Assembly: GCF_023897015.1 (NCBI RefSeq)
Contig: NZ_JAMHFY010000028.1
Span: 1 to 62,417, forward strand
DNA: 62,417 bases
Source of the DNA: Desulfosporosinus nitroreducens
GTDB lineage: Bacteria > Bacillota > Desulfitobacteriia > Desulfitobacteriales > Desulfitobacteriaceae
Direction: 5' to 3'
The translations under genes were made by a program, and so were the position numbers. Below are positions 25,045-52,072 of this stretch, piece by piece (position 1 is the first letter of the stretch; every line of letters starts with the position of its first letter). Below the pieces are notes generated by a model. It ran no database searches, was not told where the DNA came from, and worked only from the letters and a program-made list of their open reading frames with translations.

Positions 25045-25152
25045 CTTTATAATTCTTTTATTCTTACATGCTTTATGGAGTAGGAAGTAAGCGATATAAG
25101 GCGAATAGTTGTATATAATGTAGGTTAAAGCGAATAATATGAGGTGTAAAGC

Positions 25153-37677: not shown

Positions 37678-37911
37678 AAATTGTTTCATTCGTTTGAAAA
37701 AATAGGTATATTCTTATTGCCGAATGATGATTGATTCACTTTGTGGATCATTTTACCTAAAATGTAAGACAATTTTTTATATTTAAGCAGGATAACCCTA
37801 TATACAAATCGAATGTTTATATTGTAATATGTGTATTAGATCTTATGTCTTAAAACCGTTTAGAGAATGAAACAGATTAATTGATTGCTCAATAATTAAA
37901 TACTGAATTCT

Positions 37912-37977
37912 ACTCATATAACCTCGATAATTGGTTCGAGGGTTTCTACGAGGCAACCGAAATTGCTTCTCTATGAG
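37912..37977 (+). promoter_or_regulatory. Purine-family riboswitch aptamer (variant)
   Basis: All parts of the purine riboswitch are visible. P1: CTCATA (37913-37918) with TATGAG (37972-37977). P2: CCTCGA with TCGAGG (37922-37927, 37936-37941). The invariant junction GTTTCTAC is at 37942-37949. P3: GAGGCAA (37950-37956) with TTGCTTC (37963-37969). The L2 GG (37933-37934) and L3 CC (37957-37958) needed for loop kissing are present. The specificity position (74 in xpt numbering) is C (37971), as in guanine-type aptamers. Unusual: L2 and L3 are each one nucleotide short, and position 73 is U instead of A. It controls the hydroxylase operon starting at 38151. Confidence 0.8.
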
Positions 37978-38019
37978 CCAGGGATGGCCATAGAGTTTTG
38001 CAATAGAGGTTGCTTTTTT
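37953..38019 (+). terminator. Riboswitch expression platform: terminator that competes with the aptamer
   Basis: A long stem uses aptamer sequence: GCAACC (37953-37958) with GGTTGC (38008-38013), TTGC (37963-37966) with GCAA (38000-38003), CTCTATG (37969-37975) with CATAGAG (37989-37995) and GCC/GGC at the tip, followed by TTTTTT (38014-38019). It consumes P3 and the 3' strand of P1, so aptamer and terminator exclude each other. Ligand binding should therefore allow read-through (ON switch). Confidence 0.75.
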
Positions 38020-38075
38020 GTGCTGTCAAAAAGTATAAACTTACGTTATATACTTTCTAAGCATAAGTGCAACTA

Positions 38076-38117
38076 AGGCTACCGCCTGCGCCTGTGGCTT
38101 GGCGCTAGCCAAGTTTT
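38076..38117. repeat. Short hairpin repeat, compact form (related copy at 12803-12868)
   Basis: GCCTGTGGCTTGGCG directly followed by TAGCCAAGTTTT forms a small hairpin, CTTGGC-GCTA-GCCAAG (38098-38113), with four Ts. It lies between the riboswitch terminator and the next gene. Confidence 0.45.
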
Positions 38118-38150
38118 CTATATGCGCAAAATAATAAATGAGGTGAAAAA

Positions 38151-38993
38151 ATGAAGTATTTTCAACCGTACAGCGTGGAAGAGGCTATAGAAATAGCCCA
38201 TGCATCCGAGTCTACTTTCTTGGCTGGGGGAACCGACCTTGTACTTCATATGCGTAACGGCAAAGCTCAGCCGTCGGGTCTCATAGACCTGGGCAAAATC
38301 CCCGTTCTTCGCGAGATCAAAGAAGTCGACGGGTTTATCGAAATCGGGAGCATGGCCACGTTTGCAGAATTAGGAAATAGTGAACTCGTTGCCCAAAATG
38401 CCTATGCCCTTTGGCAGGCCTGTCAATCCATGGGTTCTCCACAAATTCGTAATCAAGCGACTTTGGGTGGAAACTTAGGTAACTGCTCACCGGCTGCGGA
38501 TGGCTTGCCACCACTATTAGCGTTAGGGGCAGAGGTCCATTTGATTTCGCAAGAGGGGGAGGAATTTGAACCTTTATCCACTCTCTTAAGCCGTACACCG
38601 CTCCTCGGACAGAACACCCTCATTCTTGGATTCCGTATCCCTATCAATGGTTGGCAGAGTGGCTTTGCAAAATTAGGTAGACGCAGAGCGTTAGCCATTG
38701 CCCGTTTAAGTGTCGCTGTGGCTGTAGAAATAAATGGAACCCGAGTGGAAAATGTTCGCGTGGCCCTGGGAGCTGTGGGCAGACGAGCTTTCTTAAGTGA
38801 ATCTCTTGGCCGGGAATTAAGCGGTCTGGACTTAAACGGGGCTTGGTTGGAAAAAGGGGTTTTGGAAGTCCAACAGATAGTCCGAGAAGCTTTGGGGGCC
38901 CGGGCATCTGCACCATATAAACGGGAAGCGGTTTCTGGAGTCTTTCGTGAGGCGTTAGCGTCGATCATCACAGAGGGAGGGACACAGGCATGA
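38151..38993 (+). CDS. FAD-binding subunit of a four-subunit molybdenum hydroxylase (YgfM/NdhF-like)
   Basis: 280 aa CO-dehydrogenase-flavoprotein family subunit with LAGGTDLVLHM and RNQATLGGNLGNCSPAADG, the two FAD-contact motifs. First gene of the riboswitch-controlled operon. The next start overlaps its stop by 4 nt. Family neighbours are YgfM of the putative E. coli selenate reductase and the flavin subunit of clostridial nicotinate dehydrogenase. The substrate is probably a purine, given the riboswitch and neighbours. Confidence 0.87.
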   Translation: MKYFQPYSVEEAIEIAHASESTFLAGGTDLVLHMRNGKAQPSGLIDLGKIPVLREIKEVDGFIEIGSMATFAELGNSELVAQNAYALWQACQSMGSPQIRNQATLGGNLGNCSPAADGLPPLLALGAEVHLISQEGEEFEPLSTLLSRTPLLGQNTLILGFRIPINGWQSGFAKLGRRRALAIARLSVAVAVEINGTRVENVRVALGAVGRRAFLSESLGRELSGLDLNGAWLEKGVLEVQQIVREALGARASAPYKREAVSGVFREALASIITEGGTQA

Positions 38994-39457
38994 TAGAGAT
39001 TAAACTTGTTGTAAATAATAAGCCTTATACTTTGGGAGTTGAACCAAGTGAACGTCTCATTGATGCTTTACGCAACCGTTTGGGATTGCTTGGAACGAAA
39101 GAAGGGTGTGGGGAAGGAGAATGTGGAGCCTGCACCGTGATTATGGACGGTAAAACAGTGAACTCCTGTCTTGTTCTGGCTGTTCAAGCCAACGGAAGTG
39201 TTATTACGTCAATTGAGGGAGTAGGAAATCGGCGCTCACCTCATCCTGTACAGAAGGCTTTTGTCGAAGTTGGAGCCGTTCAATGTGGTTTTTGTACCCC
39301 TGGAATGGTTTTATCAGCTAAGAATTTGCTGGATAAAAACTCGAAGCCTAGTAATGAAGAAATTGGAATTGCCATGTCAGGGAATCTTTGTCGCTGTACA
39401 GGGTATGATAAAATTTTGCGGGCTGTAAAAATCGCTGCTGAGGAGGGAAAGGAATGA
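38990..39457 (+). CDS. 2Fe-2S subunit of the four-subunit molybdenum hydroxylase
   Basis: 155 aa with two [2Fe-2S] sites: CGEGECGAC...C and CGFC...CRC. It overlaps the FAD gene at its start (ATGA) and the next gene at its end (ATGA), so the whole operon is translationally coupled. It ferries electrons between the molybdenum and FAD subunits. Confidence 0.9.
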   Translation: MIEIKLVVNNKPYTLGVEPSERLIDALRNRLGLLGTKEGCGEGECGACTVIMDGKTVNSCLVLAVQANGSVITSIEGVGNRRSPHPVQKAFVEVGAVQCGFCTPGMVLSAKNLLDKNSKPSNEEIGIAMSGNLCRCTGYDKILRAVKIAAEEGKE

Positions 39458-40719
39458 AAACTTCAGTGGTGGGTTCCCGAGTTGTCAGAGAAGATGCCTG
39501 GGGGAAAGTCTTTGGGCAAACGAAATTCCCTGCAGACGTGAATTTGCAGGGTCAGATCTACGCGGTAGTTATTCGCAGTCCACATCCTCATGCCAGAGTT
39601 CTAGGAATTAACAGTGAACAAGCAATGAGCTTAGCTGGTGTGGTGGCTGTCTTAACGGCCAAGGATGTTCCTAATAATTCCCACGGTGTACTCTTTCGCG
39701 ACCAGCCCGTCCTAGCAGAGTATATTCGAATGGTTGGGGACCCGGTGGCGGTTGTAGGAGCAGAAACAGAGGAAATTGCTCGAGCTGCTGCCAAGCTTGT
39801 AGAAGTAGAATACGAGGTTTTGCCGGCGGTGTTTGACCCAGAGGAGGCTATGATGCCTGATGCGCTCCCTCTTCATCCTACGCTTCGGCCGACAAACGTC
39901 TTATATCACATGCCAATTCGTCGGGGCAATTTGCAAGAAGGCTGGGCTCAAGCAGACGTCGTAATTGAAAAAGAGTACAGTACTCAACATGTGGACCATG
40001 CCTTTCTGCAACCCGAAGCAGTGCTGGCTCATGTGGATGAACGCGGACACATGGTGGTGGAAACAGCTACCCAATACGCTCACTATGATCGGGGCGAGAT
40101 TGCCCATGCGTTAGGGCTTCGTTTTAGCCAGGTTCAAGTCAAAACCTTAGCGGTGGGAGGAGCTTTCGGAGGACGGGAAGACATTTCACTTCAGATTATG
40201 GCGGCCTTAATGGCCTGGAATACACTTCGACCTGTAAAAATGGAAAATACCCGGGAAGAATCCTTTTATTCTCATTCCAAACGTCATCCTATGCGGATGC
40301 ACTATAAAACAGGAGCGACGAAGGATGGAAAATTAGTTGCCCTGGAAGCTAAAATTATTGGGGATGCAGGTGCTTACTCTTCCTGGAGTATCAACGTTTT
40401 GCGTAAGTCTGCGGTACATGCCAGCGGACCCTATGTTATCCCGAATGTTTCAATTGATAGTTATGCCGTATTTACCAACAATCCTTATTCTGGAGCCATG
40501 CGTGGCTTTGGTGCGGCCCAAACAGTCTTGGCGTATGAGAGTCAAATGGATCTCCTCGCGAAGGAAATTGGAATTTCTCCATTAGAGATTCGCTTGCGTA
40601 ATCTTTTTAAGGTTGGAAGTACGACGGCTACAGGACAAGTATTGACCGGAAGTGTGCCACTTGATCAGTGCTTGGCGAAAATCGCGCCGTATCTCCAAAG
40701 AGGGGGGGACTCTCAATGA
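39454..40719 (+). CDS. Molybdopterin subunit, N-terminal part (NdhL-like large fragment)
   Basis: 421 aa corresponding to the first half of an XdhA-type subunit, with the hammerhead domain, GGAFGGRED and AMRGFG. It stops at TGA 40717-40719, just where the second molybdopterin domain should continue; that half is a separate gene starting at ATG 40716. A natural split at this point is known from selenium-dependent nicotinate dehydrogenase (NdhL about 50 kDa, NdhM about 37 kDa). A run of seven Gs (40702-40708) lies at the junction, so a frameshift or read error is the alternative. The GGRED glutamate aligns with Glu802 of bovine XDH. Confidence 0.8.
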   Translation: MKTSVVGSRVVREDAWGKVFGQTKFPADVNLQGQIYAVVIRSPHPHARVLGINSEQAMSLAGVVAVLTAKDVPNNSHGVLFRDQPVLAEYIRMVGDPVAVVGAETEEIARAAAKLVEVEYEVLPAVFDPEEAMMPDALPLHPTLRPTNVLYHMPIRRGNLQEGWAQADVVIEKEYSTQHVDHAFLQPEAVLAHVDERGHMVVETATQYAHYDRGEIAHALGLRFSQVQVKTLAVGGAFGGREDISLQIMAALMAWNTLRPVKMENTREESFYSHSKRHPMRMHYKTGATKDGKLVALEAKIIGDAGAYSSWSINVLRKSAVHASGPYVIPNVSIDSYAVFTNNPYSGAMRGFGAAQTVLAYESQMDLLAKEIGISPLEIRLRNLFKVGSTTATGQVLTGSVPLDQCLAKIAPYLQRGGDSQ

Positions 40720-44804: not shown

Positions 44805-44830
44805 AAAGGCTTGGCGTTAACCAAGCCTTT
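44805..44830 (+). terminator. Terminator-like hairpin between the deaminase genes
   Basis: AAAGGCTTGG (44805-44814), six-base loop, CCAAGCCTTT (44821-44830). Confidence 0.6.
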
Positions 44831-44864
44831 CTTGATATCTGTCTGGAATGGAGTGTGGAGCAGT

Positions 44865-46598
44865 ATGTTGAGCTTTAAGCAAAGAATGGATGAAGCCAGG
44901 GGGCTTGTTAAAATTGACTTGGTTCTGAGACGAGCTAAGTTAGTTAATGTCTTCTCTGGGGAAATCCATGAAACGGATATAGGAGTCCATCAAGGTAACT
45001 TTGTTGGTATTGGAAAGTTCGAAGAAGCGGAGAGGGTTCTGGATTTAGCCGGTAAGTATGTTGTTCCTGGCCTGATTGACGGACATGTACATATAGAAAG
45101 CTCGCATCTTTGTCCTGAGGAGTTTTGTTCGCTTCTTCTTTCTCATGGAGTAACAACAGCGGTCGCAGATCCACATGAAATCGCCAATGTTTTAGGGAAA
45201 CAAGGAATTCAATATATCCTCGACAGCGTCGAAGGACTACCCTTTAATGCCTTTGTAGCACTTCCTTCTTGTGTTCCTGCAACAGATTTGGAGACTTCAG
45301 GGGCTCGTCTCGGAGCGAAGGATTTATTAGAATTTGTCGATCATCCTAAAGTTATAGGTCTAGGCGAGGTTATGGATTATTTGGGAGTGATCCAAGCCGA
45401 ATCGGATATGGTAGAGAAGCTGAAACTTCCTTTGCCCTTTTTTGATGGGCATGCTCCCGGAATATCTCCTCAGGATTTGAACGCCTATTATCTGGCGGGA
45501 ATACATACAGAACATGAATGCTCAACAGTTGAAGAGGCTAGAGAGCGTTTACGGCGCGGTTTCCACGTCATGCTTCGCGAGGGAAGTGCCGCAAAAAACC
45601 TCTTGGATCTTTTGCCTGCAGTGACTTCCCAAAATGCAGGACAATGTCTTCTGGTGACAGATGACCGTCATCCGAGGGATCTTATCCATGAAGGAAGCAT
45701 CGATCATCTAGTCCGTCTGGCAATTAAGGCAGGAATGGACCCTGTCCAAGTAATCCAAATGGCGACGATCAATGCGGCCCGTGCAATCGGACTTTCTCGT
45801 TTAGGTGCAGTAGCACCTGGATATCAGGCGGATTTTGTCATTCTGGATGATTTAAATGAGTTTAAGATTAATGAAGTTTATTGGCGCGGAATAAAACAAA
45901 GTGGAAGTGAAGGGCGACCAAAATTTCCACGCTTCAGTGTTGCAGGACTCACGGAAAGTGTTCATATTGGCAACTGGTCCCCAGCCAAGCTCAGAGTTCT
46001 TACAGACAAAGAATCAAGATCGTCGAATCATGCTCAGGTTAAAGTTATTGGAGTACAAGAACATTCTCTGCTAACATCGACCTTACTTCGAGAACTGCCA
46101 GTCTGCAATGAACATATTCATCCAGACCCAGCCCAGGGAATTGCTAAACTTGCTGTGCTTGAACGTCATCATAAAACAGGAAATGTTGGGGTTGGATTTG
46201 TCGAAGGTCTGGGCTTAACAAAAGGGGCCATCGCTTCAACCGTTGCTCATGATTCACATAACCTAGTTGTCGTGGGAATGAGTGATGAGGAGATGAACCT
46301 TGCAATTATGACCTGTGTTGAGATGGGAGGCGGGCTTTGTCTTGTAGATGGAAGGCAAGTGATAGGAAAGCTTCCTTTACCGATAGCTGGGCTTATGACT
46401 GATCAGGGCGCCGAAGAAGTTGCACAAATCCTCAGTCAGTTGCATGAGAAGGCGGTTAGTTTGGGAATTAGTAAAATGGTAGATCCTTTTATGACCCTAG
46501 CCTTTCTTTCCTTACCGGTGATTCCTGAACTAAAGCTAACGGATCTGGGTTTAGTTGACGTAGAAAAGTTCCGATTAACTAAGGTCGTGTGTAAATGA
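44865..46598 (+). CDS. ade: Adenine deaminase
   Basis: 577 aa (E. coli Ade 588). Converts adenine to hypoxanthine and ammonia. The N-terminal amidohydrolase domain has LIDGHVHIESSHL and VADPHEIANV; the second domain has LTKGAIASTVAHDSHNL and MGGGLCLVDG, all diagnostic. The frame opens further upstream at 44811, inside the terminator hairpin. ATG 44865 after GTGGAG fits the usual N-terminus (FKQRMDEARG). Last gene of the purine island; its hypoxanthine feeds the hydroxylases. Confidence 0.92.
   Translation: MLSFKQRMDEARGLVKIDLVLRRAKLVNVFSGEIHETDIGVHQGNFVGIGKFEEAERVLDLAGKYVVPGLIDGHVHIESSHLCPEEFCSLLLSHGVTTAVADPHEIANVLGKQGIQYILDSVEGLPFNAFVALPSCVPATDLETSGARLGAKDLLEFVDHPKVIGLGEVMDYLGVIQAESDMVEKLKLPLPFFDGHAPGISPQDLNAYYLAGIHTEHECSTVEEARERLRRGFHVMLREGSAAKNLLDLLPAVTSQNAGQCLLVTDDRHPRDLIHEGSIDHLVRLAIKAGMDPVQVIQMATINAARAIGLSRLGAVAPGYQADFVILDDLNEFKINEVYWRGIKQSGSEGRPKFPRFSVAGLTESVHIGNWSPAKLRVLTDKESRSSNHAQVKVIGVQEHSLLTSTLLRELPVCNEHIHPDPAQGIAKLAVLERHHKTGNVGVGFVEGLGLTKGAIASTVAHDSHNLVVVGMSDEEMNLAIMTCVEMGGGLCLVDGRQVIGKLPLPIAGLMTDQGAEEVAQILSQLHEKAVSLGISKMVDPFMTLAFLSLPVIPELKLTDLGLVDVEKFRLTKVVCK

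Positions 46599-50551: not shown

Positions 50552-52072
<1,521 letters not shown>

Follow-up and report, generated by a model that had tools for sequence, protein, structure and literature searches.

In the pbuE-type adenine ON riboswitch, a terminator that consumes strands of the aptamer is blocked by the ligand, and a separate riboswitch class for 8-oxoguanine is associated with 8-oxoguanine deaminase. PMC9295807 describes guanine riboswitches chiefly as switches that turn purine synthesis, salvage or uptake OFF by lowering expression when guanine is plentiful, and their usual pocket is said to discriminate only about tenfold against xanthine and hypoxanthine. The same text sets out several variants of the scaffold: guanine-II, with insertions in J2-3 and J3-1, U51 kept and an ON switch predicted for Paenibacillus; xanthine-II, with U51G and junction insertions, predicted to be ON and tied to xanthine dehydrogenase and other purine-degradation genes; 2'-dG-III, in which the junctions are altered and J3-1 has C at position 73; and an 8-oxoguanine variant, which is named there. 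In contrast to the OFF switches described, the locus analysed here appears to place the guanine pocket on an ON platform in front of genes for purine breakdown.

Aptamer and terminator of the leader

The window is the whole 62,417-nt stretch of Desulfosporosinus nitroreducens DNA (assembly GCF_023897015.1, contig NZ_JAMHFY010000028.1, positions 1-62,417, forward strand). An Rfam cmscan of the window gives one match above gathering threshold and no second one anywhere in it: the purine riboswitch model RF00167 matches 37894-37993 on the forward strand with 67.5 bits (gathering score 37, E 1.1e-9). The elements of the aptamer were read from the sequence, and the leader comprises the following features.

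37913..37977, + strand, purine aptamer (P1, P2, P3 and kissing loops); RF00167 match, with covariation in P2 and P3
37913-37918/37972-37977, + strand, P1
37922-37927/37936-37941, + strand, P2
37933-37934 with 37957-37958, + strand, kissing GG with CC
37942-37949, + strand, J2/3, GUUUCUAC
37950-37956/37963-37969, + strand, P3, 7 pairs
37970 and 37971, + strand, U73 and C74
37950..38019, + strand, intrinsic terminator: hairpin 37950-38016 and U tract 38014-38019; fold of -33 kcal/mol
38027..38126, + strand, dispersed repeat between the terminator and xdhB; 43 matches in its own genome, itself included

It is almost certain that the element is a purine riboswitch aptamer. U22, U47, U51 and C74 are all intact in a junction of standard length, as seen in both the sequence and the Rfam alignment, and judged by these bases the pocket is that of guanine-I. 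The departures from consensus lie elsewhere: L2 and L3 have 6 nt each, leaving a one-nucleotide gap in each against the Rfam model, position 73 is U where the consensus has A, and the first P3 pair, 54-72, is G-C where the consensus has C-G. The original prediction had described P1-P3, the junction, the kissing GG/CC, the C at the specificity position, the short loops and U73, and had proposed a covariance search; sequence, alignment and the score against RF00167 agree with it on each point, and the exchanged 54-72 pair is an addition to its list.

The terminator shares its strands with the aptamer. The hairpin 37951-38016 folds with -33 kcal/mol (z -6.4), a value matched by none of 200 shuffled sequences, and takes up P3 on both sides, J3/1 and the 3' side of P1; the first U's of the U tract sit within the stem of this fold. 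In a series of folds of increasing length, the aptamer has the lowest energy at 70 and 75 nt and lies 0.6 kcal/mol off the minimum at 80 nt, whereas the hairpin beats it by 6.6 kcal/mol at 85 nt and by 17.3 kcal/mol at 110 nt. Fold, hairpin search and leader pairing all show that aptamer and terminator are mutually exclusive by shared strands, as in an ON-type transcriptional riboswitch. Because forming the terminator uses up P3 and the 3' P1 strand, ligand binding should turn the operon on, and we consider this direction very probable; the original prediction had given the same account of the terminator, and its ON-type reading stands as a prediction.

We infer both the direction and the kinetics of switching. 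Without ligand, the nascent leader would rearrange, with a hairpin nucleating just 3' of P1 that takes the 3' P1 strand and then both P3 strands to form an intrinsic terminator upstream of xdhB. A bound ligand would hold P1 and the three-way junction and block the terminator, so that the genes for purine uptake, deamination and hydroxylation would be transcribed. The dispersed repeat that follows holds a terminator-like hairpin of its own (38096-38115) and is missing from the leaders of two relatives (L041 and L042).

The operon and its relatives

The genes downstream of the leader are all on the forward strand.

38151..38993, + strand, FAD subunit of a molybdenum hydroxylase (XdhB-like); NCBIfam XdhB 155 bits, under the cutoff of 310
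38990..39457, + strand, 2Fe-2S subunit (XdhC-like); NCBIfam XdhC 188 bits, cutoff 217; best model 189 bits, cutoff 290
39454..40719, + strand, molybdopterin subunit, N-terminal part (MoCoBD_1); Pfam PF02738 and PF01315
40668..41720, + strand, molybdopterin subunit, C-terminal part (MoCoBD_2); Pfam PF20256
41809..43164, + strand, NCS2-type purine permease; Pfam Xan_ur_permease 182 bits
43452..44783, + strand, TRZ/ATZ amidohydrolase, putative deaminase; NF005557 (5'-deoxyadenosine deaminase) 672 bits, cutoff 522
44811..46598, + strand, adenine deaminase; TIGR01178 612 bits, cutoff 472.5

The relatives of the NCS2 permease with solved structures are the adenine/guanine permeases AZG1 and AZG2. 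Upstream lie genes for YgeY, a carbamoyltransferase (under its cutoffs), carbamate kinase (472 bits, cutoff 266), D-hydantoinase, a selenium-dependent xanthine dehydrogenase (1406 bits, cutoff 830), YqeC, a MocA-like protein (under its cutoff) and YqeB. From this gene content, we read the locus as one for purine degradation. The purine-hydroxylase operon proposed originally is thus present, with hydroxylase subunits, permease, amidohydrolase and adenine deaminase in place, whereas the label of an 8-oxoguanine-deaminase-like gene is not supported: the amidohydrolase stays under the cutoffs for 8-oxoguanine deaminase (NF006055, 296 bits against 532) and guanine deaminase (TIGR02967, 241 against 375), and passes the 5'-deoxyadenosine deaminase model instead.

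The two parts of XdhA lie in different frames in 19 of the 21 relatives that have both, and in one frame in two (L037 and L039). The split is therefore the usual state of the gene, and we rejected a sequencing error in the window as its cause. Elsewhere in the window, 50552-52072 (- strand) encodes a protein with a long collagen-like Gly-Ala-Thr repeat. A block of the form AGGA, about 17 nt, CGAATA-like lies at about 37789-37815 and recurs upstream of many orthologous leaders; a similar one, at 25081-25107, precedes a PrdR-like gene. We rejected this block as a general promoter, as one form of it has 6 matches in the genome against 21 for a reversed control, and a looser form occurs in the window at chance level (8 matches, 7.4 expected).

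RF00167 matches occur in 41 of the 45 genomes of the family, from which we read 40 matches in addition to those of the window's own genome. Within the genus, 25 of 29 genomes carry the U73 element; the four others are G012, G020, G026 and G030, where one match was read (L071). Wherever the records are named, the U73 element of the window's type belongs to Desulfosporosinus. Five genomes of other genera in the same family have an orthologous element with C54-G72 and A73 and the same genes downstream (L034, L038, L044, L065 and L066). For the 30 orthologous elements, the next gene is xdhB in 22, the amidohydrolase directly in four, the NCS2 permease in one, and an xdhA remnant with the permease in two; one is cut by the contig end. 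In most of its columns the junction varies little or not at all; among the 25 genus genomes with U73, L055 has lost one J2/3 base and three have G at position 48. The conservation of U73 and the short loops, which the original prediction had proposed to examine, therefore holds in part: U73 is kept in most of the genus, but the five orthologues have A73, and L3 has 6 or 7 nt.

We aligned the 30 orthologous rows (28 distinct) and examined them for covariation, the absence of which had been named at the outset as grounds for abandoning the prediction. Standard pairs make up 98.2% of the total and 11 of 22 pairs are changed on both sides, values of which neither is reached by any of 500 shuffles; the number of further pair types is unexceptional (77 of 500 shuffles). 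The covariation is confined to P2 and P3. Neither P1 nor the kissing pairs covary in this alignment: the kissing pairs and five of the six P1 pairs are invariant, and the remaining P1 pair has no compensated change. Some of the P3 changes set the A73 group apart from the rest and so represent few events.

The overlap with the terminator is conserved as well. In 28 of the 30 leaders, the 5' strand of P3 and the arm preceding the U tract form at least 6 consecutive pairs, and the A73 group keeps this pairing with re-paired sequence. L049 and L065 fail this test of perfect pairing, but the simple hairpin search still predicts a hairpin overlapping the aptamer for both. When arms were swapped between groups, the 5' arms of U73 leaders reached at least 6 pairs with 3' arms of the A73 group in none of 100 combinations, whereas A73 5' arms reached 6 pairs with U73-group 3' arms in 60 of 120; the control is one-sided, since A73 5' arms pair with half of those arms.

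Position 73 and switch direction in other genomes

PMC9588036 places A73 of the adenine relative in a stack with A24 close to the pocket, and U73 may therefore shift affinities. As the literature describes it, the consensus base A73 makes no contact with the ligand. U73 looks like a specificity mutation, yet its distribution fits this poorly. A pattern scan for U73 and C74 finds at least 119 genome loci and, with three viral ones, 122 among the matches listed; of these, 70 have the standard register, 47 have a mismatch or a shifted register at 54-72, and five, including the three viral loci, are chance matches. Nine of the 70 listed standard-register loci are of the window's type (seven named Desulfosporosinus, plus L185 and L192 of the same sequence type). 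We labelled genes here, for matches in the window's own genome and in the phylum sample below by regular expressions, and called ON or OFF by the simple hairpin search. By these labels, the first gene of the 70 listed loci is guaA in 30, purE in four, purC in two and guaB in one, and xanthine-dehydrogenase-type in 11, NCS2 in 12 and guanine-deaminase-like in five; the other five have other genes or none.

No P3-consuming terminator is called in the 37 of these 70 loci that precede biosynthetic genes; for guaA, the terminator follows the aptamer in 26 of the 30 listed loci, and in four a hairpin starts at the edge of P1. U73 is thus no private marker of the window's type, a reading that we rejected, and its frequency before biosynthetic genes makes it compatible with ordinary guanine control. 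In contrast, all 11 listed loci before xanthine-dehydrogenase-type genes are called ON with a P3-consuming terminator, six being of the window's own type and five from Bacilli. Cytobacillus firmus (L143) combines short L2, short L3, U73 and an ON-called terminator with downstream iron-sulphur, FAD and molybdopterin reading frames that score best against xanthine dehydrogenase subunit models, each under its cutoff (FAD and molybdopterin frames scanned in L143, the iron-sulphur frame in its relative L138); the case is either independent or transferred. We also observed U73 aptamers before guanine-deaminase-like genes in L076, L146, L149, L166 and L182, the first three named Oscillospiraceae or Oscillibacter. 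The predicted terminator starts at the 3' P1 strand in four of these, possibly making them ON switches, and none is called in L076; the one gene scanned has guanine deaminase as its best model (309 bits, under the cutoff of 375). The 47 listed shifted-register loci are guanine-II-like at most with uncertainty, because most have terminators after the aptamer and PMC9295807, in the text accessible, predicts ON for Paenibacillus.

For the phylum, we took roughly every second of the best listed matches outside the window's family, 80 in all, of which 79 could be parsed (all except L271). ON is called in 25 of the 79. In this crude sample, it is called in 8 of 12 cases where the gene is labelled as a molybdenum hydroxylase, against 2 of 22 where it is biosynthetic (Fisher p 0.0009) and 17 of 67 for all the rest (p 0.008). 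The script reads U73 in none of the 79 matches, but L255 and L272 appear to be misread, and L255 by eye has U73 with a 54-72 mismatch. Five matches from other families (L234, L244, L246, L267 and L278), parsed with G73 and a mismatched P3 base, are called ON before genes labelled as molybdenum hydroxylases and may form another variant group.

In the C. difficile genome behind L085, only one of four purine switches has U73 (L287, the same locus as L085). The second gene upstream of L287 matches the model for a branched-chain amino acid carrier (301 bits, cutoff 243), and CD2702 is given as brnQ in the accessible text of PMC3510511. If the carrier gene, one gene away from L287, is CD2702, this U73 aptamer fits and appears to be CD2704. 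The review PMC11477304 gives high-affinity guanine binding for each of the four C. difficile switches, and a specific response to xanthine for the CD2704 switch; because the U73 aptamer appears to be CD2704, xanthine is a serious rival to guanine as the signal.

Candidate ligands and comparison with known classes

Taken together, the element is probably a guanine-class (C74) purine riboswitch in ON orientation; guanine is its most likely inducer, followed by xanthine or hypoxanthine. We infer guanine as the main signal with slightly better than even chances, because the A73 orthologues share the operon, because 37 of the 70 listed U73 loci are biosynthetic and five guanine-deaminase-like, and because in C. 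acidurici the gene for guanine deaminase is numbered beside those for purine hydroxylase (PMC3519856, accessible text). The effect of U73 on affinity, the CD2704 case, the pairing failures in L049 and L065, the junction loss in L055 and the description of guanine switches as OFF may all speak against this explanation. Xanthine or hypoxanthine as the main signal is possible. We regard as doubtful the corresponding alternative, in which the ON mechanism is the same and the aptamer with its U73 prefers xanthine (or hypoxanthine), a substrate or product of the hydroxylase, with guanine the weaker natural signal. The CD2704 assignment, the low discrimination described for the usual pocket, and the ON switches before xanthine-dehydrogenase-type genes, including the five Bacilli loci with short L2 and L3, favour it. 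However, guanine is reviewed as a ligand of all four C. difficile switches, the gene that U73 most often precedes is guaA, where xanthine makes less metabolic sense as a signal, orthologous operons have A73, and the ligand-contacting residues are unchanged. A broader proposal, that U73, often with shortened loops, tunes the guanine scaffold toward xanthine without touching a ligand-contacting base, and that Desulfosporosinus and, among Bacilli, Cytobacillus with its relatives thereby built xanthine-induced ON switches for xanthine-dehydrogenase-type operons, we consider unlikely.

A separate class of aptamer, sensing 8-oxoguanine, urate or some other oxidised purine, would suit a catabolic operon, draws on the named 8-oxoguanine variant of the scaffold and could look to the amidohydrolase superfamily, which includes 8-oxoguanine deaminase. 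The model for that deaminase is passed in one of the 16 genomes behind 16 of our loci and in 4 of 98 genomes of that one's family, the first included. At one of these loci, L285, a purine aptamer lies upstream of the gene above cutoff, with a J2/3 shorter by one nucleotide and A73, whereas the window keeps the full J2/3; the other three loci have no purine aptamer at E up to 1. As the window's amidohydrolase is also under the cutoff, 8-oxoguanine, one of the ligands suggested originally, is not supported, and the whole alternative is highly improbable. The suggestion that U73 and short loops mark a new ligand class is likewise weakened by the A73 orthologues, the variable L3 and the U73 loci before guaA, purE, purC and guaB. 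We give equally little credence to an OFF switch or a decayed aptamer, a relic beside a terminator that is constitutive or otherwise regulated. The described OFF mode of guanine switches, the repeat that entered the window's leader and the damaged junction of L055 would fit; against them, P3 lies inside the terminator, so bound aptamer and terminator cannot coexist, the two are conserved together across 30 leaders, and most junction columns hardly vary.

Related arrangements were seen in passing. In three genomes of the genus, aptamers before a second molybdenum-hydroxylase cluster (L067, L068 and L069) have U51G and an insertion ahead of J3/1, as well as a hairpin that overlaps them, and by these features resemble xanthine-II. 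In L001 (1501-1692), a match to Guanidine-I (ykkC) that stays under the threshold (48.5 bits against 63) comes after a canonical purine aptamer and suggests a tandem guanine-PRPP switch; L002 and L003 look similar by eye but are without the Guanidine-I match, and L002 precedes another FAD-like reading frame of a molybdenum hydroxylase.

Our literature search, which reached few subscription journals and is weak evidence of novelty, returned no report of this operon's switch or of a standard-junction guanine aptamer in an ON switch. Compared with the classes described, the window shares with guanine-I (RF00167) the three-way junction, the kissing loops, U22, U47, U51 and C74 and the standard P3 register, and differs in its ON-type platform, its catabolic operon, U73, G54-C72 and the 6-nt L2 and L3. 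The 8-oxoguanine class, represented here by L285 through gene association only, has a similar scaffold, and differs in the J2/3 and position 73 noted above. Judged by the text descriptions in PMC9295807, three variants can be excluded: guanine-II, which is alike in scaffold, U51 and predicted ON direction, whereas the window has a junction of standard length and register, a P3 of 7 pairs and a paired G-C at 54-72; xanthine-II, which is alike in ON type and in its tie to xanthine dehydrogenase and purine degradation, whereas the window has neither U51G nor junction insertions and its J2/3 is GUUUCUAC; and 2'-dG-III, as the window has U73 and an intact J2/3. The pbuE-type adenine switch is alike in its terminator arrangement, but has U74 where the window has C at 37971, which excludes the adenine class. 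The switch is thus a variant arrangement of a known riboswitch class and not a new class.
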